From a virus, in IMG/VR virus record IMGVR_UViG_3300010373_000095, positions 1 through 36,020 of that record: a stretch of 36,020 nucleotides of DNA; one strand, 5' to 3'. A program made the translations under genes and the position numbers. Shown here in pieces: positions 4,300 through 33,015 of this stretch; within the stretch, counting starts at the first letter, position 1, and every line of letters starts with the position of its first letter. Under the pieces are notes generated by a model, which worked only from the letters and a program-made list of their open reading frames with translations, was not told the origin of the DNA and ran no database searches.

Positions 4300-4602
4300 A
4301 TGAGCGATATCGAATTTGTCTCCGGCCTGATCGTCAAGGCGACGCATGAGAAAGCGCCCGAGTACGTCAAAGCTGCGCTGTCCATCAAGCGCGAAGAACT
4401 GATTGCATGGCTGCAATCGCGCAGCGATGAATGGATCAATGTTGAGGTGAGGGAATCGCGGGGCGGCAAGTGGTATGCCGCAGTCAACAACTACAAGCGC
4501 GAAGGTAACCAGGCGCAGCCGGCCAAGCCCCGCGAGCCGGTGAAGAACTGCCCGCAACCCGATCAAGGCGGCTTTGAGGATGATGACATCCCTTTTGAGT
4601 AG
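4300..4602 (+). CDS. Small phage recombination-cassette protein with SSB-like acidic C-terminal tail
   Basis: ATG 4300 follows the nuclease stop by two bases; the frame is open further upstream but that part is a shadow. The 100-residue product has an N-terminal body (FVSGLIVKATHEKAPEYVKA, SIKREELIAWLQSR, GGKWYAAVNNYKRE) and a Pro/Gln-rich linker ending in GFEDDDIPFE and a TAG stop. The ending resembles the DDDIPF tip with which bacterial SSB recruits repair proteins, except for one extra Glu after Phe. Similar short proteins occur beside recombinases in other phages (memory). It could bind ssDNA or recruit SSB partners; neither is shown by sequence alone. Confidence 0.75.
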   Translation: MSDIEFVSGLIVKATHEKAPEYVKAALSIKREELIAWLQSRSDEWINVEVRESRGGKWYAAVNNYKREGNQAQPAKPREPVKNCPQPDQGGFEDDDIPFE

Positions 4603-7764: not shown

Positions 7765-7801
7765 TTCATGCATTGGCGGAGAGAGAGGCCGATTCATGCC
7801 C

Positions 7802-7829
7802 TCCGCAACATTCCGCAACATTCCGCAAA
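7802..7829. repeat. Three direct repeats TCCGCAACA at 10-bp spacing, candidate Int/Xis sites
   Basis: TCCGCAACAT begins at 7802 and 7812, and TCCGCAAAC begins at 7822. The exact 10-bp period puts the copies on the same face of the helix. They sit between the AlpA-like gene and int, where arm-type integrase or excisionase sites, or operator iterons, are expected. Binding is inferred from spacing only. Confidence 0.5.
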
Positions 7830-7919
7830 CCCGCGCCGTTGTGCGGCTTTGAATCCACACCGTCCCGGATCATTCCTGTACGATCCGCACACCGAACATG
7901 GGTAGGATGGTGGGTAGGA

Positions 7920-9077
7920 ATGGGGCGTCCGATCAATCGTCTGTCGGCGCGCCAGGTCGCTACGGCGAAGGCAGGGTATCACGCGGACGGAGGCGGCCTG
8001 TACCTGCAGGTGACGGAGGCCGGCACGCGATCCTGGGTGCTGCGCTACCAGCTCGCCGGCAAGCGGCGGGAGATGGGGCTCGGCCCGATTGCCTTGGTGA
8101 GCCTTCATGACGCGCGCCACGCGGCGCTGGGGCATCGGCAAGCCATGCTCCAAGGCATCGACCCACTGGACGCGCGCAGGTCAGCGCGGGCGGTCACAGG
8201 CATGACGTGGGGTGCCTGCGTGGATGCCTTCATCGAGACGCACCGGCACGGCTGGAAGAACGACGCGCAGGCCGAGCAGTGGGGGCAGTCCCTGAGGGAC
8301 TACGGGCCTGCGCGCGAGGCCGAGGTGGCCCGCATTGACACGCCGGCCGTGTTGGACTGCCTGCGTCCGATCTGGACGGACAAGACCGAAACGGCCACCC
8401 GCGTGCGAGGACGCATCGAGCGCATCCTGGACTGGGCGCGCGTGTCGGGGTATCGGTCGGGCGAGAACCCGGCGCGCTGGCGCGGGCATCTGGACAAGCT
8501 GTTGCCGCGCCCGTCGAAGGTGAAGCGCGCGCAGCACCACGCCGCGATGCCCTATGCCGACTTGCCGGCGTTCATTCCCGATCTATTGGCGCGCCGCGCG
8601 CTGGCCGCCAAGGCGATGCACTTCACCCTACTGACGGCGGCACGCACGGGCGAGGTGACGGGCATGCCTTGGGGCGAGCTGGATCTGGACGCAGGTCTGT
8701 GGACGATCCCGGCCGAGCGCATGAAGGGAGGCGCGGAGCACGTCGTGCCGCTAGTGCCTGCGGTGATCGCACTGCTGAAAGGACTGCCGCGAAACAAGCC
8801 GCCGTTCGCCTTGAGCGAGAACGCGATGCTCTACCTGTTGCAGAAGCGCATGGAAAAGCCCTTCACCGTCCATGGCTTCCGATCCTCATTCCGCGACTGG
8901 GCGGCCGAGAAAACGGACTTCCCCGCCGAGGTAGTCGAGATGGCACTGGCGCACACCATTCGCAACAAGGTGGAGGCCGCCTACCGCCGCGGCGCCCTGC
9001 TGGAAAAACGCCGCAAGCTCATGGAGGCATGGGCGGCGTATTGCGAGACGGCGCCCCAGCCATCGGCCCGCGCCTGA
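7920..9077 (+). CDS. int: Tyrosine-type site-specific integrase
   Basis: The 385-residue product has an N-terminal DUF4102-like arm-binding domain (HADGGGLYLQVTEAG, SWVLRYQLAGKRREMGLG), a core-binding SAM-like domain, and a C-terminal catalytic domain. Catalytic residues are Arg 242 (TAARTGE), His 318 and Arg 321 (HGFR), His 345 (ALAH) and the nucleophile Tyr 355 (AAYRRG), all present. It is the P4-like class of phage and island integrases, which mostly use tRNA genes as targets; a tRNA-like sequence lies 196 bp downstream. ATG 7920 is chosen because homology starts there; the frame is open to 7773 but that leader overlaps terminator and repeats. Confidence 0.95.
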   Translation: MGRPINRLSARQVATAKAGYHADGGGLYLQVTEAGTRSWVLRYQLAGKRREMGLGPIALVSLHDARHAALGHRQAMLQGIDPLDARRSARAVTGMTWGACVDAFIETHRHGWKNDAQAEQWGQSLRDYGPAREAEVARIDTPAVLDCLRPIWTDKTETATRVRGRIERILDWARVSGYRSGENPARWRGHLDKLLPRPSKVKRAQHHAAMPYADLPAFIPDLLARRALAAKAMHFTLLTAARTGEVTGMPWGELDLDAGLWTIPAERMKGGAEHVVPLVPAVIALLKGLPRNKPPFALSENAMLYLLQKRMEKPFTVHGFRSSFRDWAAEKTDFPAEVVEMALAHTIRNKVEAAYRRGALLEKRRKLMEAWAAYCETAPQPSARA

Positions 9078-9273
9078 CTTGTGCGCGTAGGCTGGCGCCT
9101 GACGGCCATCGGATGAGGCCTGACGACTGGGGCTGGACCATTTTGCGGATGCGCGCAACATGGTTCTGTCGGCGGCCGATGATAGTCGCGTCAGATCAAC
9201 GCCGCCAAATTCGTCACCGGTCCGGCATGCGCGGCGCTGGCGAGATTCGTGCGTGGCCTGATAGAGTATCCGC

Positions 9274-9346
9274 GCAGCGATAGCTCAACGGTAGAGCGTT
9301 GCACGTCCAGTGCAAAGGACGGGTTCGACTCCCGGACGCTGCTCCA
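9274..9346 (+). tRNA. tRNA-Gly(UCC)-like sequence, degenerate; probable attP target mimic
   Basis: A 73-base cloverleaf can be drawn: acceptor GCAGCGA with ACGCTGC, D-arm GCTC/GAGC, anticodon stem TTGCA/TGCAA with loop CGTCCAG, T-loop TTCGACT, and an encoded CCA end. The anticodon by position is TCC (Gly). Departures from a working tRNA are visible: position 33 is G instead of the near-universal U, the last acceptor pair is A-A, the first T-stem pair is A-G, and the variable loop has only three bases. It lies just downstream of int, so it could be an att-linked tRNA copy or a phage tRNA that has decayed. The 196 bases between int and this sequence hold no gene I can see. Confidence 0.6.
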
Positions 9347-16562: not shown

Positions 16563-18551
16563 TCAAGCCACAGCCCCCGCGTTCGTCGAGACGGCCACGT
16601 TCGATCCGGCCTGATTGAAGATGCGAATGTTCACATTGCCCGAGCGACCGATGGATGCAGTCTTTCCACCGGGCATGACGACTTGCGCTCCGGCATCCAT
16701 GCTCGAGCCTCCCTTTTTGCGCGCCATCGACGGATCTTGTTCCATCATGGTTTTCAGCACGCGGCTCATGAAGACCTTCGTTTCGTCAGGAAGGAAGGTC
16801 ATCCAATCGGCGCCGTGCTTTTTGATGTCCGAATCGACCGACGACGGATTCCAGTTCCATGCCGCCAGTTCCTTGCGCAAGTCACCGTGATAGCGCGTCT
16901 GAAGTTGGCCCATGAGCGTTACCGCGCCGAGCGTATTCTGTCGCCAATCGCGAGGGTTCTCGATGCCTAACGCTTTGGATACACCCGGCATGAGTTGGAA
17001 CAATCCTTGTGCGCCTTTCGCCGACATGGCATTGGCATCGAAGCTCGATTCATTGGCAGCCAGCGCATAGAGTGTGCCTTTTGGCAAACCTGCTGCGGCC
17101 TCAAGCTTGCCGAACAACGCCGATGCGTTGCCCTTATTCACATAGGCATGCTTGGCATTGGTAAGAATGGCGTTGTCTTGCATGCCATACATGTTCGCCA
17201 CGGAATGGAAGAACTTGTCGGCCACGCTTCCTGGCTTCGCGATGCCCGTGCCGTTCATGTCGGCTGCGTAGTGGCTTGCCGCCCATTCGGCAATCGCCGA
17301 CTTCTTGGGGTTGGCTGCGAAGGCGGGCGAATTGGCTACGTCAGCCAGAGAGGGTTCTTTGCCCGAACCTGGAGTGTCGAGATGGAAGGCTTTCGCGATC
17401 CATGTCGCCGCACCGCCCAACATCGACAGGAACGCCTTGATGTCGTGCCCCGCTTCCTTCATCGTGGTGAGGAAATCACCACTGCCGAGGTAGGTGGCGA
17501 TGGCGTCCAGACCCTTTCCTACCCGGTCCAAGTTCTGCGGCGTCAGCACTTCGTCGAGTAACTTCTTGCCGTCGCGTTCCAGCGTGGTGAGGAACCCACC
17601 GAGATGCGGGCCAAGCGCGGCCAACTTGCGAGACAGATAGGTTTCAAGATCTGAACCAGCGAGCTTCAACTGGCGCTCGAAACTGTAGAGGCCGTTCACT
17701 TGCCCATTGTTGACGTTGAGACTCGCGGCATCACGCCGGTATTGCGTCAAGGCCAGCAACAGTTCTGTACGGTCGGTGTTGCCGTACTGTCGCGCCAGTT
17801 GGAACGGAATGCCCGATTGTCCGAGGCCGGTCGTCTGATAGAACGCTGTGTTGCGCTGCGCTTCCGGTGTGTGCATCCACCAGTCATGCGCCTTGATCGC
17901 CAGCTTCGCGGCCAGCTCGCCCGCGTCCATGCTGTTGAGGCCTGCGCCAGAGATGCCGCCAAGCGCCCGGCGCATCCACACGTTGCCCACCATGTCGCTG
18001 CGAGCATTGACGATGCTTCCCAGCGTGCCTTCGTCCATGTAGCGCAAGCCGAAGTCCGTCTGGAAGGCTTTCAATTGCCCCGGTGTCATGCCGAGGCCGC
18101 GAGCCGTGCGCTGCGTGCCGACAGCCGATTGCGCGAGTTTGTCCAGACCGAAAGTCGCACCCGTGAACAGACCCAGCCCTGCGACACCTATCTTGGTCAG
18201 GAATCCGCCAATGCCAAACAGCGTGTCACGGACTTCCTTGGCGGCATGCGCCAGTCTCTTCATGGACCGCTCACTGGTGCCGGTCAGGTCGCCGAACTGC
18301 TTCTGCAGCGCCTTGGCGTCGCGCAGGTGCTTGCTCATGTCCTGCACGCCGCCGGAGAGTCGGGCCATGTGTTCGGTCATCGCGCCGAAGCCAGCCGCCA
18401 TCGCTTCCTGTGCCTTGGCCGCGCCTTCGTTCAACGTTTTCCACGACGCCGGCATCTCCTCCAGCTTGTCGGAGAAATCCTTGTACAACTCGTAGAATTG
18501 CTTGAACTGCTGGTCGTTGACATCAATGTCGATGACGGAACGGTTAGCCAT
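16563..18551 (-). CDS. Tape measure protein with lytic transglycosylase domain
   Basis: At 662 residues this is the longest tail protein. The N-terminal ~150 residues are helical (FKQFYELYKDFSDKLEEMPA, AKAQEAMAAGFGAMTEHMAR) with a hydrophobic piece (IGVAGLGLFTGATFGLDKLA). The C-terminal ~150 residues are an SLT domain: GTLYALAANESSFDANAMSA with catalytic Glu near residue 501, AKGAQGLFQLMPGVSKALGI, and LAAWNWNPSSVDSDIKKHGA. It sets tail length and would cleave peptidoglycan during DNA entry. A tape measure fused to a murein hydrolase is known in other phages. It overlaps the chaperone's frameshift product by eight bases. Confidence 0.92.
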   Translation of the reverse strand: MANRSVIDIDVNDQQFKQFYELYKDFSDKLEEMPASWKTLNEGAAKAQEAMAAGFGAMTEHMARLSGGVQDMSKHLRDAKALQKQFGDLTGTSERSMKRLAHAAKEVRDTLFGIGGFLTKIGVAGLGLFTGATFGLDKLAQSAVGTQRTARGLGMTPGQLKAFQTDFGLRYMDEGTLGSIVNARSDMVGNVWMRRALGGISGAGLNSMDAGELAAKLAIKAHDWWMHTPEAQRNTAFYQTTGLGQSGIPFQLARQYGNTDRTELLLALTQYRRDAASLNVNNGQVNGLYSFERQLKLAGSDLETYLSRKLAALGPHLGGFLTTLERDGKKLLDEVLTPQNLDRVGKGLDAIATYLGSGDFLTTMKEAGHDIKAFLSMLGGAATWIAKAFHLDTPGSGKEPSLADVANSPAFAANPKKSAIAEWAASHYAADMNGTGIAKPGSVADKFFHSVANMYGMQDNAILTNAKHAYVNKGNASALFGKLEAAAGLPKGTLYALAANESSFDANAMSAKGAQGLFQLMPGVSKALGIENPRDWRQNTLGAVTLMGQLQTRYHGDLRKELAAWNWNPSSVDSDIKKHGADWMTFLPDETKVFMSRVLKTMMEQDPSMARKKGGSSMDAGAQVVMPGGKTASIGRSGNVNIRIFNQAGSNVAVSTNAGAVA

Positions 18552-18696
18552 AGCCAGGCACTCGCGCTTTCAGCAGTTCGATGAGATAGCGTTCGCGAAA
18601 CTCGCGGGCGCTGCGATACGGCCATTCATGGCGATCAAAGGTTTCCTCGAAACGCCACGTCGCTGCTTCATTCAGGACGGCACCGACAACGCCCCC
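18544..18696 (-). CDS. -1 frame extension of the tail assembly chaperone (GT-type)
   Basis: This frame encodes NEAATWRFEETFDRHEWPYR followed by SAREFRERYLIELLKARVPG and ends at TAA 18544. It has no ATG, GTG or TTG between the G-run and its conserved part, so independent initiation is unlikely. A run of five G (18692-18696) near the end of the upstream ORF would let the ribosome slip back one base from GCG GGG and enter this frame as GGC GTT GTC. The product would be a chaperone of ~230 residues with a C-terminal extension, like lambda G-T. The slip site is inferred from sequence; homologous phages use the same layout. Confidence 0.6.
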   Translation of the reverse strand, partial: GGVVGAVLNEAATWRFEETFDRHEWPYRSAREFRERYLIELLKARVPGYG

Positions 18697-19244
18697 GCAG
18701 CCGGCGAAGGAACGTCCGGCGTCGAGGTCGGCAAGGAAGCGGCGAAGTCCAAAGCCGAGGAGGATGTGATCGATCCCGACAACAGGGAAGCCATCGCTTC
18801 GGCGCCCTTCTTGCGCGTGGCCTTGCGGCTCAGCGCATAGAGGCAGGTAAAAAAAACGATGGCCGATTCCACCTCGCCCCAGTCGTCGGCATCGATAAGA
18901 CCTTGTGCGATAGCGCCATCGACCGGGAGCATCTTCCAGCCGTCCGCCGCAGGGCACAGGATCATCGTCAACCGCTTCAGTTCGGCCAGCAGCGACAATG
19001 CTGCGTTGTCGTCCTCTTCCCCGCTGCGGCCCTCATCCTTGAGGGCAAGCGCCGCAATCCGTGGCCCGGAGTCCATCTGATACATCACGCCCTTGTCGCT
19101 CAAGGCGGCTTTCGTGGCCGCGAGCAGACGGTAATTCGCCTCGAACACCTCGCGTGAAATGGGCGTGTGGTAGGCGTAGATGGTGATTGCCCCATCGTCG
19201 CGCACCGGCAGCACCAGGTTCAGAGCTTCATTGATCGAAGCCAT
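18672..19244 (-). CDS. Tail assembly chaperone (gpG-like)
   Basis: The 190-residue protein lies between tube and tape measure, the standard place of the tail assembly chaperone. It begins ASINEALNLVLPVRDDGAIT and contains VFEANYRLLAATKAALSDKG, then ALSLLAELKRLTMILCPAAD, DDWGEVESAIVFFTCLYALS and an Ala/Ser/Pro-rich end (TPDVPSPAAGALSVPS). The Pro/Ser-rich end is where a -1 frameshift would add the extension encoded at 18544-18696. ATG 19244 is preferred because it overlaps the tube gene stop; the frame is open upstream to 19442 but that is a shadow of the tube gene. It is not part of the virion in related phages. Confidence 0.8.
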   Translation of the reverse strand: MASINEALNLVLPVRDDGAITIYAYHTPISREVFEANYRLLAATKAALSDKGVMYQMDSGPRIAALALKDEGRSGEEDDNAALSLLAELKRLTMILCPAADGWKMLPVDGAIAQGLIDADDWGEVESAIVFFTCLYALSRKATRKKGAEAMASLLSGSITSSSALDFAASLPTSTPDVPSPAAGALSVPS

Positions 19245-19687
19245 CACAGGTTCCACAGATTGTTGTTGACGATGAACGTGCCACGCAGCGTCACGCGCAC
19301 TACCGGATCGGTGCCATCCCATGCGCCCGGATCGATGCTCTGCACCACGCAGTTGTTCAGCGTGATGGCATCGAACGCTTTGCTGTCGGAATAACTCGTC
19401 ACATCGCCCATGCCGGATCCGGCCTGCACTTGTTCCAGCCACTGACTCGCCAGCGACTGCGTGCGCAACAAGCTGATGGAGAGCGAGGCAAACACGTAAG
19501 GTTCGTCCGATTCGACCGCGCCGGTCGCCGTCCCGATCAAGTCCGAGAAATTGCCCTCGAAATTGAGCCGCGCCATTTGCTTGCCCATGTAGGACGCTTG
19601 GACGTTGAGGTTCGTGAAGGCAGGGATGACCACGGAAGTGCGGACACGGTTAAGCGTCCCCTGCGTAACGCGAGGATTGGTTGCCAT
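19244..19687 (-). CDS. Tail tube protein
   Basis: The 147-residue protein follows the sheath gene. It begins ATNPRVTQGTLNRVRTSVVI and includes NLNVQASYMGKQMARLNFEG, LASQWLEQVQAGSGMGDVTS and the end VVRVTLRGTFIVNNNLWNL. The beta-strand pattern and the GxxGDVTSYSDSKAF type centre fit a tail tube subunit of simple contractile phages. ATG 19687 has a good Shine-Dalgarno (CCGGAGATCCCAGC) and is favoured over an in-frame ATG at 19771. It forms the inner tube under the sheath. The position directly before the chaperone and tape measure supports this. Confidence 0.78.
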   Translation of the reverse strand: MATNPRVTQGTLNRVRTSVVIPAFTNLNVQASYMGKQMARLNFEGNFSDLIGTATGAVESDEPYVFASLSISLLRTQSLASQWLEQVQAGSGMGDVTSYSDSKAFDAITLNNCVVQSIDPGAWDGTDPVVRVTLRGTFIVNNNLWNL

Positions 19688-19710: not shown

Positions 19711-20322
19711 TTACACGGCGCTGAGGTTGAAGGTGATGGACAGGAAGCCGTTCTGGCTCGTCATCGTGCACGACAGGCCGTTGTAGATGCCGTTGCCGTA
19801 ATCGGTCGGATTTTGCGCGACGTAGGTGGCGAAGGGCACGGCCGAGACGACAGCCGATTCAGCGCAGCCATAGGCCACGGCGTTGTTTGCGATCCGCTGC
19901 GCCACCGCCTGCAGCGAGTTGATGCCGTTCTGGTCATAGAGCAACGGTGGCTGCTGGTTCGACCCGTTGATGACGGCGGCGGCCAATGCCTGCTTGGCCT
20001 GGATCTGCACCCAGTCGATGCCATACCAGGACGACGCCTGCTCGCCGTCCATGGTGGTGCCCTTGTAGAGCGCCACGTTCGACAAGCCGCCCTCTGCGGC
20101 CTGCAAGGCGAGGTTGCCGAAGGCCGACAGGATGGCCGTGATCGTGGAGCCGTTGCCCTTCTGCGTCCATTGCGTGATGCCGTAGAGGAAGCGGAAGGAC
20201 ATTGGCGGCAGGATGTTGGCTGGACCGGGGTTGTTGACAAGCCACTGGTAGAAGAACGCCGCTGCCTGCAACTCCGCTGCGGCTTCCGTGGGACTGGGCA
20301 CGACGGCGAACACCGACTTCAC
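19711..20322 (-). CDS. Tail sheath protein (DUF3383-type), part C-terminal to an in-frame TAG
   Basis: The 203-residue ORF (GTG 20322) is the direct same-frame continuation of the gene upstream beyond one TAG at 20347-20349; codons between TAG and GTG read ANVSVYAG. It contains AAAELQAAAFFYQWLVNNPG, SFRFLYGITQWTQKGNG, GTTMDGEQASSWYGIDWVQI, QAKQALAAAVINGSNQQPPL, LLYDQNGINSLQAVAQRI and ends ITFNLSAV. This is the typical C-terminal half of DUF3383 tail sheath proteins as I remember them; intact family members run through this join. Whether it is translated alone from GTG, only by readthrough, or not at all is open. The TAG is discussed under findings. Confidence 0.85.
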   Translation of the reverse strand: MKSVFAVVPSPTEAAAELQAAAFFYQWLVNNPGPANILPPMSFRFLYGITQWTQKGNGSTITAILSAFGNLALQAAEGGLSNVALYKGTTMDGEQASSWYGIDWVQIQAKQALAAAVINGSNQQPPLLYDQNGINSLQAVAQRIANNAVAYGCAESAVVSAVPFATYVAQNPTDYGNGIYNGLSCTMTSQNGFLSITFNLSAV

Positions 20323-20346
20323 GCCCGCGTAGACGCTGACATTCGC

Positions 20347-21024
20347 CTAGGTGGTGGTAACGAAGAAGTACCGCAGTCCCTGCGCAGAACTGTAGTTACC
20401 GGCCAACGTCTTGATGGCCGCGGAATCGTCGGTATCCCACGACGGCGGTAGCAGGTAGGCGTAGAACTGCTGCGGCTGTTCGTTGTTCGTGATCCATGTC
20501 TGCAGCGCCGTGATGGCGGCGGCATCCGACGCCTGCGGCCCCAGCTCGATCACGAACACGCCTACCGATCCGCCCTGCGCGAAGAACGTCGTACCTGCGT
20601 CCAGCAGGAAAGCCGTATCCGGCACGGTGTAGGTGCCGGGCGCCGTTTCCGTGCCTGGGTTGGCAGTCAGCGGATAGGTAAAGGTATCGGTTCCCGTCAC
20701 GGTAGCCGTGTAAGTGCCGTTGTAGGCCGCCGGCACTGCGCCAGCAATCACAACGGTGAACGTCGTCCCCGTGGACAGGCCGAGCGTTGCGCTCGTGGTA
20801 GCGGTAACGACGCTGGACGCCCAAGTGAGACTGTCCAGCGCCACAGCTGGTTGCAGGATGGCCGTCAACGCCGTCAGATTGCCGCAGTACTGCGAAGAGC
20901 CCGCGGTGAGAGTGGTGCCACCGGTCGAGATGAGCGCGCCACTCTGCTGAACCTGCGACGGCTGGGGCGCCTGCGTGACGAAAGTATTAAGGTTGACGAT
21001 GGTCGCCGTTTGAACGTTTGCCAT
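20347..21024 (-). CDS. Tail sheath protein (DUF3383-type), N-terminal part ending at an in-frame TAG
   Basis: The 225-residue ORF begins ANVQTATIVNLNTFVTQAPQ and has LISTGGTTLTAGSSQYCG, then an inserted beta-domain (~residues 63-133: YNGTYTATVTGTDTFTYPL, ANPGTETAPGTYTV), then TFFAQGGSVGVFVIELGPQA, ITALQTWITNNEQPQQFYAY and YFFVTTT. It stops at TAG 20347-20349. The sheath family normally continues without a break into the sequence encoded at 19711-20346, so this is the N-terminal ~half of one ~437-codon gene. ATG 21024 is used because the family start is there; the in-frame ATG at 21111 overlaps the upstream gene. The sheath is essential for contraction. Confidence 0.88.
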   Translation of the reverse strand: MANVQTATIVNLNTFVTQAPQPSQVQQSGALISTGGTTLTAGSSQYCGNLTALTAILQPAVALDSLTWASSVVTATTSATLGLSTGTTFTVVIAGAVPAAYNGTYTATVTGTDTFTYPLTANPGTETAPGTYTVPDTAFLLDAGTTFFAQGGSVGVFVIELGPQASDAAAITALQTWITNNEQPQQFYAYLLPPSWDTDDSAAIKTLAGNYSSAQGLRYFFVTTT

Positions 21025-21346: not shown

Positions 21347-22306
21347 CTACGTTTGGTTGGTTGTGGTCATGGCGGCGGAGAGGATGTACTGACGCGCGTA
21401 GGCATCCGCCGTGCCCTGGTAGTAGGACGCGTCAAAGTCGAGGTTCTTTTTCATCGCGAGCGCGGCGATTTCCGCCTGCGTGCGCTTTTCGTCGTGAATG
21501 ACCGGCGACGTGCAAAAGCCGAAGGCATCCGTCCACGACACATCGATCAGGTTCATTAAGAACTGAATCGACTGCTGATTCGTGAAGCCGTACAACGTGA
21601 GTCGCACCCGGTCGCGCATGAGCTGTTGCGAGGCCCATTGATAGATCGGCGCGTTGCCGGTGCCCGACTCTGGCGTGCCCGGCACTTGGAGAATCGGGAA
21701 GGCCCCCAGCGCTTCCGTGGTGCCCGGTTCGATATGTGCGACGACGTAGGGCGGCTTGATGTTGTCCGGCACCAGATAGGACGGGTAGATCGGCGCCATG
21801 CTGTTTTGCAGCAGCCAGATGGGCAGGCTGTTGGACACGATGGGTCCGACTGGCAAGTCACTAGACGACTGCACCAGTTGCGACGCCATGGCGGGATAAA
21901 CCGCATATCCGCCGTAGTGCCAGAGTTCGGCTTGCTGGTAGAACGATCCGCGATCCGCGAAGGCGATCTGCAGCGACGTTCCGTCAACGGTCCATGTGCC
22001 AATCCAGAGCGTCCCCGGATTGACAGTATTGAACGCCGTGACTTCCTGCTCGGCAGTGAAGATGAAGCGATTCGCGGCGACGGTCTGGTCTTCGTCCTGG
22101 TGTCGATCCGTGATGTAGTGCAGCGATCCGGCGAAGTTTGCCGTGGTGCCGGTGGCGACCCAGAACACATAGCCGTCCTGCGACAGCGAAACCTTCGTGT
22201 ATTGCTGGAACGTAATCGATTGGTTCGCCGACAGCGTGTTGACGCCAGCTTCAAGAACTGCAGCCAGCGGGGGCGGCGCAGCGGTGGCCTCTTCGATCAG
22301 CGCCAT
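21347..22306 (-). CDS. Probable neck / tail-terminator (gateway-position) structural protein
   Basis: The 319-residue protein is encoded just ahead of the small structural gene and the sheath. It includes GVNTLSANQSITFQQYTKVS, DGYVFWVATGTTANFAGSLH, WIGTWTVDGTSLQIAFADRG, and the second part TEALGAFPILQVPGTPESGT, RVRLTLYGFTNQQSIQFLMN and FDASYYQGTADAYARQYILS. A protein with this layout at this position in DUF3383-sheath phages serves as neck or gateway protein joining head and tail; I recall the order more than a named family. It ends with TAG followed after one codon by TAA, so readthrough would add only two residues. Confidence 0.6.
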   Translation of the reverse strand: MALIEEATAAPPPLAAVLEAGVNTLSANQSITFQQYTKVSLSQDGYVFWVATGTTANFAGSLHYITDRHQDEDQTVAANRFIFTAEQEVTAFNTVNPGTLWIGTWTVDGTSLQIAFADRGSFYQQAELWHYGGYAVYPAMASQLVQSSSDLPVGPIVSNSLPIWLLQNSMAPIYPSYLVPDNIKPPYVVAHIEPGTTEALGAFPILQVPGTPESGTGNAPIYQWASQQLMRDRVRLTLYGFTNQQSIQFLMNLIDVSWTDAFGFCTSPVIHDEKRTQAEIAALAMKKNLDFDASYYQGTADAYARQYILSAAMTTTNQT

Positions 22307-25673: not shown

Positions 25674-26531
25674 TCAGGCCCCCTTGTGGTTGCGGTTGAT
25701 GCGGATGCCGACACCCGGAGCCATGAACGGCGCCCAGCAGGCCATGGGATCGCCCGAGAATTCGGTGATCTGGCGACCTGCCGCGTCGGCACGGGTGTGG
25801 GCGATGAGCTTGCCGGTCGGCACCTTGGCAGGATTGCGCGCGGCCAGCTGGGCGTCGGCGTAGATGCGTTCCTCGATCACGCCGAAAGCGTGCGCGTCGA
25901 GCGAGTCCAGCTTGATGTCCTTCGCCGACACGCTGTGCTTCTGCAGCTTGGCCGCGAGTCGCTTGCGGTACGCGATGGGGCTTTCTCCATGCAACGGCGG
26001 GCTCACACTGTCTCCGAACATGTAGGCCACGTTATCGGCGCGGGACTGGGCGAGGCTCAGGGCATCGCGGTCGCTGGCGGACTGCGGAGCGGTGAAGGAT
26101 TGGATGCGGCGATCCATGGCCGCAATCTGCGCACGCAGTTCGCGGTTTTCGCGGGACTGGGCATCGGCGCGCTCTTCATCTTTGCGCTCTTCGGCCCTGC
26201 GCTCCTCCTCGCCATCCTTTTCGGCCTTCTTCAGGTCGCGGTCGGCGTCACGCTCTTCACGCTCTTCCTTCTCGCCGTCGCGCTCGGCTTCCTTTTCGGA
26301 ATCCTTGCGCTCGGCCTTCTTTTCCTGCGCGACCTTGCCAGCGATTTTCTCGGCGGCTTCCTTGTCGTAGCCCTCGCCTTCGACCTTCTTTTCCAGACCG
26401 TCGAAGCTGTCCTCGCGGTCTTCCACTTCGCCCTTGTTGTCCATCGCGTCGAGACGAGCGTGGAGCTCATCGCAGCGCTTCATGATGGCATCCGCCCAAG
26501 CGGGGGCCTTCTCTTCGATTTCGTCAGCCAT
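25674..26531 (-). CDS. Nested scaffold protein, internal start within the protease gene
   Basis: Codon 342 of the large gene is an ATG (26531) preceded at eight bases by GGAG, a usable ribosome site. From here the same frame would give a 285-residue protein of coiled-coil plus C-terminal domain (ADEIEEKAPAWADAIMKRCD) without the Nudix and protease parts. This is the lambda C/Nu3 arrangement, where the nested product is the scaffold. Translation from the internal site is inferred. Confidence 0.5.
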   Translation of the reverse strand: MADEIEEKAPAWADAIMKRCDELHARLDAMDNKGEVEDREDSFDGLEKKVEGEGYDKEAAEKIAGKVAQEKKAERKDSEKEAERDGEKEEREERDADRDLKKAEKDGEEERRAEERKDEERADAQSRENRELRAQIAAMDRRIQSFTAPQSASDRDALSLAQSRADNVAYMFGDSVSPPLHGESPIAYRKRLAAKLQKHSVSAKDIKLDSLDAHAFGVIEERIYADAQLAARNPAKVPTGKLIAHTRADAAGRQITEFSGDPMACWAPFMAPGVGIRINRNHKGA

Positions 26532-27554
26532 TGCTGTTTCTCCGTTTGCGTTGACACCAGAGGGATCGCCGCCCTTGTCCCACACGCCCTCCTCGCAGAT
26601 GGCGAGGTGGTCGAGGTAGGAGGGGCGGCCTTCAATCAAGACCGTCGAACCGTCATCCAGTTGGACGGTCTCAGTCGAACCGGCGTCGCGGAAAACAACC
26701 GCCGGGCTTGTCGATGCGTGCGACGCGCACATGAGTTGCGCCGCATCGTCATCGAACACTTTGGCGATGCCCCAAACTTCATCGCCCTTGATGTAGGGAA
26801 GGAACATCGTGCCGATGGATCGGTCACGAAATTCCCCAGTGTTGAGAATGTTCTTGTCGGGATGCTCGAAGACCAGCGGCAGACCGTTGCACCGCTGCAC
26901 GAACTCTTCGGTCAGGAAGTCTTCCGGTGGCCGATAGACGTACTCGTCCAAGCTGCTGCGATAGCTAGTGCCCGTGCCCGTGATGCGTATATCGAACAGC
27001 CAGACATTTTCGTAATGCTGCGGCGAGAGCAGTTCGCTCTTCGCCATGCGTGAGGCGATGTCCAGTTCGTTGCCGGTGATGCGTTCGATTGTCTCCGCGA
27101 CCTTCCGGTGCATCGGTGACGGAAGCGCATCCGGAGCGAACCAGCCCCAGTTGTCATGTTCTTCGTTAAGGTCGGGCTCGAACGGTTCCGGGACATCCTG
27201 CAGGTAGCAGGTGAAGATGCCGCGACCCTTGGGAATCGCATTGCGTCGAACCGCCCAGCGCAGCCCGTCCGGACAGGTGCCGATTTCTTCCACGCACTCG
27301 CGGCAAGCAGCCTCTTCCGGCGCCTCATCGCCTTCCAGATGACCGCCTGGCTGCGCCCATTCCCCCGTATCAGTCCGCCGCAGCAACAGGTACAGCGGAC
27401 CACGGGCGCGGAACAGGATGCCAGCGCAATCACCGCGGCTCGCTGCATCCGCTGCCACGAATTCCTGGCCCACCGCCTTCGGGATGCCGAGCGTAGAATG
27501 CCCATGCGCCGCCGATTCCATCGCACGATGCTGGCGAGCGCTTACGGATGGCAT
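25674..27554 (-). CDS. Nudix domain fused to DUF2213-type prohead protease and scaffold
   Basis: The 626-residue protein has at least four parts. Residues 1-35 form a helical start (PSVSARQHRAMESAAHGHST). Residues ~40-165 are a Nudix hydrolase with a complete box, GHLEGDEAPEEAACRECVEE then IG (GX5EX7REUXEEXG), starting at residue 71. Residues ~185-340 are a DUF2213-like capsid maturation protease (YVYRPPEDFLTEEFVQRCNG, LPLVFEHPD, AQLMCASHASTSPAVVFRDA). Residues ~345-480 are a highly charged coiled coil (AERKDSEKEAERDGEKEERE) with a capsid-scaffold look, followed by a C-terminal head domain. It divergently faces the moron gene. Nudix activity is probable since the box is intact. Confidence 0.85.
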   Translation of the reverse strand: MPSVSARQHRAMESAAHGHSTLGIPKAVGQEFVAADAASRGDCAGILFRARGPLYLLLRRTDTGEWAQPGGHLEGDEAPEEAACRECVEEIGTCPDGLRWAVRRNAIPKGRGIFTCYLQDVPEPFEPDLNEEHDNWGWFAPDALPSPMHRKVAETIERITGNELDIASRMAKSELLSPQHYENVWLFDIRITGTGTSYRSSLDEYVYRPPEDFLTEEFVQRCNGLPLVFEHPDKNILNTGEFRDRSIGTMFLPYIKGDEVWGIAKVFDDDAAQLMCASHASTSPAVVFRDAGSTETVQLDDGSTVLIEGRPSYLDHLAICEEGVWDKGGDPSGVNANGETAMADEIEEKAPAWADAIMKRCDELHARLDAMDNKGEVEDREDSFDGLEKKVEGEGYDKEAAEKIAGKVAQEKKAERKDSEKEAERDGEKEEREERDADRDLKKAEKDGEEERRAEERKDEERADAQSRENRELRAQIAAMDRRIQSFTAPQSASDRDALSLAQSRADNVAYMFGDSVSPPLHGESPIAYRKRLAAKLQKHSVSAKDIKLDSLDAHAFGVIEERIYADAQLAARNPAKVPTGKLIAHTRADAAGRQITEFSGDPMACWAPFMAPGVGIRINRNHKGA

Positions 27555-31901: not shown

Positions 31902-32471
31902 TCACGATGCCAACGCCGCAATCACGCGCCCCATGCCGTGATCTTCGATGGGGTCGAGCGAGAAAGATGGCGTGCCGATCTTGGTGAGCGGGCCGGGCAG
32001 CGACAGTTCGGGTGGAACCTGCGTGACAATGTCCAGGCCGTTGCGCGTGGCGAACCACGGCACCTTGTTCGCGGCCAGCAAATCCTGTATTGCGGCATCG
32101 GCGCAGAGCCGGGGCGGCTCGAAGGCGTAGACCGGAACGACGTGACCCAGCTGCGCCAGCACCGCTCCGTAGATGATCGCCATGGCGCCGCCCAAGCTGT
32201 GACCGACGACAGCGGACGGTCGCGGCAGGTCGAGGCACTCCGGCAGGATCGCCGCCAGCGCGCCGTAGAAGCCCTTGTGAATCTTGCCCAGTCCTTCCAC
32301 CGCGATCACGTCGCAGTTGAGGTCGGCCAGCCATGCCGCGAGGTCGTCTGTGCCGCGGAAGACGTGCACGTCACCGTACACATGCATGCGCGAGGCGCTG
32401 TCCGCCTGCCCTACCGTTGGCGCGTCGCTGTAGGCGCGCTGGGCCAGCAGGGCGTAGTCGATGGGGCTCAT
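31902..32471 (-). CDS. Lipase (class 3-like) alpha/beta hydrolase
   Basis: The 189-residue protein has a GHSLGG nucleophile elbow (Ser near residue 92), a Fungal-lipase-like N terminus (SPIDYALLAQRAYSDAPTVG, HVFRGTDDLAAWLADLN), HKGFYGALAAI, and candidate acid and base residues in TRNGLDIVTQVPP (Asp ~147) and DHGMG (His ~178). It resembles a shortened class 3 lipase, without signal peptide. It sits between the lysis genes and the terminase, an unusual place, possibly helping release from lipid membranes or altering host lipids. The start ATG 32471 overlaps the DUF6527-like gene; the long upstream frame is shadow. Confidence 0.75.
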   Translation of the reverse strand: MSPIDYALLAQRAYSDAPTVGQADSASRMHVYGDVHVFRGTDDLAAWLADLNCDVIAVEGLGKIHKGFYGALAAILPECLDLPRPSAVVGHSLGGAMAIIYGAVLAQLGHVVPVYAFEPPRLCADAAIQDLLAANKVPWFATRNGLDIVTQVPPELSLPGPLTKIGTPSFSLDPIEDHGMGRVIAALAS

Positions 32472-32764
32472 GCCCGCACCCATTTCCCTTGGCGCACAAA
32501 ACCATGATCTCCGCATATGCGGCACAGCACGCTGGGCGATAGCGTGAGAGGTTGCTCGCTGATCAAGTCCCACGCGGTGATCTTGCCGTCGAAGCTTTTC
32601 CACCAGGAGCGGCCGACCCAAGGCACAAAGCCATCGCACGGGTTGCCATCCTTGTCTTTGTGCGTGATGCGACAACCCACGATTTCGCCTTCGTAAGTGG
32701 CGAAATGCGCTACGTGCCCGTCTCCAAGATCGAGAGGCTCGCGCGCTGGCGACTGCTCGCTCAC
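32468..32764 (-). CDS. DUF6527-like protein
   Basis: The 98-residue protein starts with GTG 32764 (GTGA overlap). It contains ITHKDKDGNPCDGFVPWVGR, KITAWDLISEQPLTLSPSVL and CRICGDHGFVRQGKWVRA. The end pattern LTLSPSxLCRxCGDHGFxRxGxWV is that of DUF6527 proteins, common in mobile elements and phages, sometimes beside ubiquitin-like conflict genes. It has a C-x2-C plus His set (CRICGDH) that could hold zinc. Its role is unknown. It lies between the lipase-like gene and a putative lysis lipoprotein fragment. Confidence 0.72.
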   Translation of the reverse strand: MSEQSPAREPLDLGDGHVAHFATYEGEIVGCRITHKDKDGNPCDGFVPWVGRSWWKSFDGKITAWDLISEQPLTLSPSVLCRICGDHGFVRQGKWVRA

Positions 32765-33015
32765 GGCTTGCCCGAACTCGCCGCGCTTGCCGGCGCGCTC
32801 TGCGCCGCCTTGATCTGCTGCTCGACCACGCCAGCGACACCGGCCGCGGTCTCGGCCACCACCAGCGCAGCCTGTACCTCCGCTTGCTGGGCGGCCGGCA
32901 GCGGTAGCGTTCCAGCGAGATGGCCCAGCGCGGGCAAGCCCGTGGTGACCAGCGCCTGGATGCTCGACACGTCGACGGTCGGCGCGGCCGATGCGCCATT
33001 GCAGACCGCGGTCAC
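32761..33015 (-). CDS. Ala-rich protein, probably the C-terminal part of a frameshifted lipoprotein
   Basis: The 84-residue ORF opens at GTG 33015 (GTGA overlap with the stop of the gene before) and is Ala/Val/Gln-rich: TAVCNGASAAPTVDVSSIQA, LVTTGLPALGHLAGTLPLPA, QAEVQAALVVAETAAGVAGV. In-frame codons just upstream of the GTG read KQAQAQLDAIHPIV, which continue the theme of the preceding lipoprotein ORF. I therefore think these are two halves of one gene that a single-base change has split, with the GTG start as an accidental or secondary site. See findings. Confidence 0.5.
   Translation of the reverse strand: MTAVCNGASAAPTVDVSSIQALVTTGLPALGHLAGTLPLPAAQQAEVQAALVVAETAAGVAGVVEQQIKAAQSAPASAASSGKP

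Follow-up and report, generated by a model that had tools for sequence, protein, structure and literature searches.

The window analyzed here, a 36 kb IMG/VR virus record taken as a whole, carries on its minus strand a tail sheath gene (19711..21024, -) whose single frame is broken by a TAG. Translation of 21024-19711 (-) from an ATG at 21024 gave 225 residues, one TAG, 211 residues, and a TAA (19713-19711), that is, 437 codons including the TAG before the final stop. The TAG (20347..20349, -) is codon 226, in the context ACC TAG GCG, and sits inside a CCTAGG hexamer. Upstream of it, the N-terminal piece (20350..21024, -; 225 codons) comprises an N-terminal segment, a beta-rich insert (approximately residues 60-134), and half of the alpha/beta sheath core, whose second half lies together with the C-terminal domain in the C-terminal piece (19711..20346, -; 211 codons). 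The frame stays open for 211 codons past the TAG, and homology is clear on either side of it. The claim of the initial annotation that an in-frame TAG at 20349-20347 (-) divides one sheath gene was thus borne out by the translation and by the homology of both halves. The earliest in-frame start past the TAG, GTG 20322, lies nine codons downstream, at a cost of nine aligned residues, and no clear ribosome-binding site was found for it, which makes translational restart unlikely. No second sheath gene was detected in the window, where the sheath sequences of relatives matched only the 21024-19711 locus in coding frame. CTAG is scarce in the window (19 observed vs 44 expected from its trinucleotides), an under-representation that fits a recent change and an error alike and decides nothing.

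On the plus strand, a tyrosine integrase gene (Arm-DNA-bind_3, Phage_int_M, Phage_integrase) is followed 200 bases on by a tRNA-Gly(UCC) and then by tail genes (7773-9346, +). In most relatives, the integrase lies at the edge of the provirus. The tRNA-Gly may mark an attachment site in an unintegrated genome, but related integrase loci are devoid of the tRNA. This tRNA (9274-9346, +) appears odd, seemingly having G in place of U before the anticodon and a three-base variable loop, and its Rfam score is only 39 bits. A comparison of its sequence with 5 Burkholderiaceae genomes and 10 virus records, made to find the host, gave no match. Next to the terminase genes lies a class 3 lipase-like protein (31902-32999, -). 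One of the head proteins (25674-27554, -), which matches DUF2213 weakly, bears a NUDIX domain fused at its N terminus. Many relatives measure 45-70 kb, and the 36 kb record is therefore probably incomplete.

Sheath identity and fold

The read-through protein matched PHROG 205 ("tail sheath") over residues 16-435 (E 1.2e-23), which covers most of the protein, as membership demands, and the C half alone matched the C-terminal part of the same profile (E 4.5e-19). The alignment to relatives extends over the full 437 residues and is gap-free at the site, except for 6 sequences in the count of 129 described below. By homology, both halves thus belong to one protein, identified as a tail sheath. Gene 36 of Shewanella phage vB_Sb_QDWS (PHROG 205, 440 aa) is the same protein, with 61% identity over the C half and the same gene order between the head and tail genes. 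Unlike the sheath of the window, the PHROG 205 relatives that span the site are all uninterrupted. The gene had been described as a DUF3383 sheath; PHROG 205 and the fold matches uphold the sheath assignment, but a Pfam search of the read-through protein and three relatives at E<=1 gave no DUF3383 match, with one relative showing only a weak, irrelevant match to DUF3218.

A structure model built on 14 sequences (mean pLDDT 72, pTM 0.73) found its best fold matches among tail sheaths in the PDB, namely those of Listeria Lin1278 and of phages Bas63, Sf14, and Pam3, along the whole chain. The E-values reached down to ~1e-6, and the TM-scores were only ~0.4-0.5, so the fold backs the sheath assignment rather than a precise model. 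In the model, codon 226 falls mid-domain, in the loop that links a core strand (219-223) to a short helix (229-232), and a cut there would fall inside a unit that is unlikely to survive splitting.

The beta-rich insert (sheath residues ~60-134; window ~20623-20847, -) is missing from the sheaths of some relatives (e.g., L006, L005) and occurs elsewhere in other phage contigs, at times twice per contig (L002, L042, L065-L072); it is possibly a mobile decoration domain.

The TAG position among relatives

Relatives of the sheath were collected by sheath-query scans of the virus collection, a genome-collection scan, and a capsid-protein scan; those found in isolate genomes belonged mainly to Caballeronia/Paraburkholderia, enterobacteria, and others. 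None of the 129 distinct relatives (213 loci spanning the site) had a stop at the matching position, as was also true of an earlier set (0/106). Many apparent stops that came from antisense or out-of-frame matches were disregarded. Apparent stops in L006, L009, and their duplicates turned out to be an alignment artefact, namely the end of the upstream frame ahead of the sheath start. The aligned residue among the 129 was V in 36, I in 27, S in 13, L in 12, A in 10, T in 8, Q in 6, and a gap in 6, with N, G, P, D, M, Y, and K also represented. Since the residue varies freely, the site is no conserved signal, and the TAG occupies a position under little sequence constraint.

In the collections scanned, from which near copies may be missing, the nearest sheath relative was ~65% identical, which leaves no close sister by which the change could be dated. 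A degenerate 29-base pattern spanning the site retrieved 11 contigs, all of them more distant relatives and none a near-identical contig with the same stretch, and when the major capsid protein and the integrase served as queries for near-identical contigs, nothing exceeded ~81% protein identity.

Recoding signals and stop codons across the window

A recoding site that is probably in use was available for comparison within the same operon. Two minus-strand frames, 18672-19442 and 18544-18957, overlap in the -1 phase, are both homologous to relative L002, and sit between the gene after the sheath (presumed tail tube) and a tape-measure-like gene with an SLT domain (16563-18551). We take this pair to be a tail-assembly chaperone of the gpG/gpGT type, from its gene position and from what is generally known of that family. 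The switch point consists of eight T followed by A (18849..18856, -; U8 in the RNA) in a phase that suits a -1 slip, and 115 of 119 distinct relatives have kept the T-run (>=6 T) at this place. On this conservation, 18856-18849 is likely a programmed -1 frameshift site. Such a conserved slip run is how a used recoding site looks in this phage group, and the TAG shows nothing alike. Of the features expected of programmed readthrough, conservation of the stop among relatives was absent (0/129), and so was a stimulatory downstream RNA structure: stretches of 50 and 90 bases beginning at the TAG showed no more folding than dinucleotide-shuffled sequences (z -0.97 and -0.06).

Reassignment of TAG to Gln (genetic code 15) is documented for crAss-like phages and phAss-1 (PMC10607447, PMC11210395, PMC9523058), and such phages share with the window an in-frame TAG within a structural gene and homology persisting beyond it. 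They differ in scale and in equipment: in phAss-1 and its kin, 37-41 ORFs contain TAG and suppressor tRNAs are encoded (PMC10607447), and 375 of 715 predicted code-15 phages (about half) encode a Sup-CTA tRNA (PMC11210395), whereas the window has a single in-frame TAG among its 45 chosen ORFs and 18 late genes and no such tRNA. The only tRNA in the window, tRNA-Gly (9274..9346, +), has the anticodon UCC and is not an amber reader; the search for a CUA-anticodon tRNA came back empty for the 36 kb, a result to be read with the probable incompleteness of the record and with the fact that about half of code-15 phages lack one (PMC11210395). No report of an amber codon in a sheath gene was found in the literature.

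The 45 chosen ORFs (table 11) end in TGA 34 times, TAA 9 times, and TAG twice. The TAG ending at 21347 is indeed backed up shortly afterwards, by GAG TAA. The TAG at 4602, taken earlier as the normal stop of an early gene, does end an ORF, but that ORF is not clearly a gene because it overlaps another in a different frame. Within the 45 ORFs, the sheath alone contained an in-frame stop, trivially so because ORFs are picked stop to stop, and the comparison of late genes with relatives is consequently the test that matters. This comparison, which covered 18 late genes and counted only breaks with >=45% identity and good flanks, found the window free of any further nonsense or frameshift break. 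Across ~1,385 copies of these genes (some contigs duplicated), the clear nonsense breaks were limited to the TAG of the window and a TAA in L184 and L186. Lone nonsense breaks are accordingly rare in this group, as expected of damaged proviruses or sequence errors.

L184 and L186 have this in-frame TAA in common; it replaces the Gln of relatives in the orthologue of a 244-aa late gene and suggests a damaged provirus lineage.

Origin of the TAG and its rivals

The TAG is very probably a nonsense change that arose recently and is private to this contig, in a sheath gene that is otherwise normal and single-copy; it would be either an inactivating point mutation or a single-base consensus error. 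Between an inactivating mutation in the sampled phage or prophage and a consensus error of the assembly, the odds are roughly even. With no TAG in any relative and no visible decoding machinery, a one-off inactivating change or base-call error is a far better account than a hidden recoding signal. Of the two branches set out in the initial annotation, a lethal point change or sequencing error therefore stands, and reading through, suppression, or recoding found no backing: the codon is absent from relatives, the other tested genes are free of in-frame TAG, a CUA tRNA is absent from the window, and the 3' context is not special.

If the TAG is real, translation would stop at residue 225, midway through the sheath core, and the truncated product would be deprived of half of the core domain and of the C-terminal domain. 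Genomes bearing the TAG should consequently make no working contractile tail unless an intact copy helps. We infer both this loss of sheath function and the recent origin of the TAG. If the TAG is a consensus error, there would be nothing to explain. In nonsense mutations of the structural genes of phages and decaying prophages, one stop breaks one gene and the downstream frame remains open, as here, and the TAA of L184 and L186 is a comparable lesion in a different late gene. The present case differs from known nonsense mutations in that it involves one contig, for which a real mutation and a consensus error are about equally likely. As a counterpoint, a single lesion amid intact late genes could mean that the sheath is still made somehow.

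The leading rival along these lines, which we consider improbable, is that a real TAG is decoded, through suppression or readthrough, with the help of a host that suppresses amber codons or of a suppressor tRNA encoded beyond the sequenced part of the genome, yielding full-length sheath. In its favor, the 211 codons past the TAG are intact and homologous, and the many residues seen at the position in relatives, Gln included, imply that almost any amino acid could be inserted there. The other tested late genes are likewise unbroken, and the contig is probably incomplete. Against it stand the lone tRNA-Gly(UCC), the absence of the TAG from all relatives, the downstream RNA that is no more structured than shuffles, and the one in-frame TAG in ~45 genes set against the many ORFs of phAss-1-type phages (PMC10607447). 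No positive evidence thus favors suppression, be it by the host or by a tRNA encoded beyond the 36 kb. A quantitative obstacle is that the sheath is required in many copies, and leaky readthrough could hardly meet that demand. A more specific version, in which a temperate myophage makes its sheath, and hence its lytic growth, dependent on an amber-suppressing host or an unseen suppressor tRNA as a one-codon control of late expression, is more doubtful still.

A functional stop, with a sheath that assembles from two separately made pieces, is extremely unlikely: each piece is a long open frame, but the cut separates core elements of one domain, the second piece would have to begin at the poorly equipped GTG 20322 without its nine aligned residues, and relatives, for which the initial annotation had envisaged two separate genes as an alternative, have a single one, such as the 440-aa gene 36 of QDWS. 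Hardly any credence attaches either to a phage that reads TAG as sense throughout (table 15 or similar), because the two TAG terminators among 45 ORFs that might suggest it are of a rarity common at ~60% GC, and the single in-frame TAG, its absence from the other tested late genes, and the dense coding under table 11 contradict it.

Were the TAG decoded, it would constitute a single-codon switch on a structural gene. The case shows how a lone stop in one assembled phage contig can be judged: the relatives, the codon use across the whole window, and the comparison with a recoding site that is likely genuine together favor an ordinary private lesion or error.
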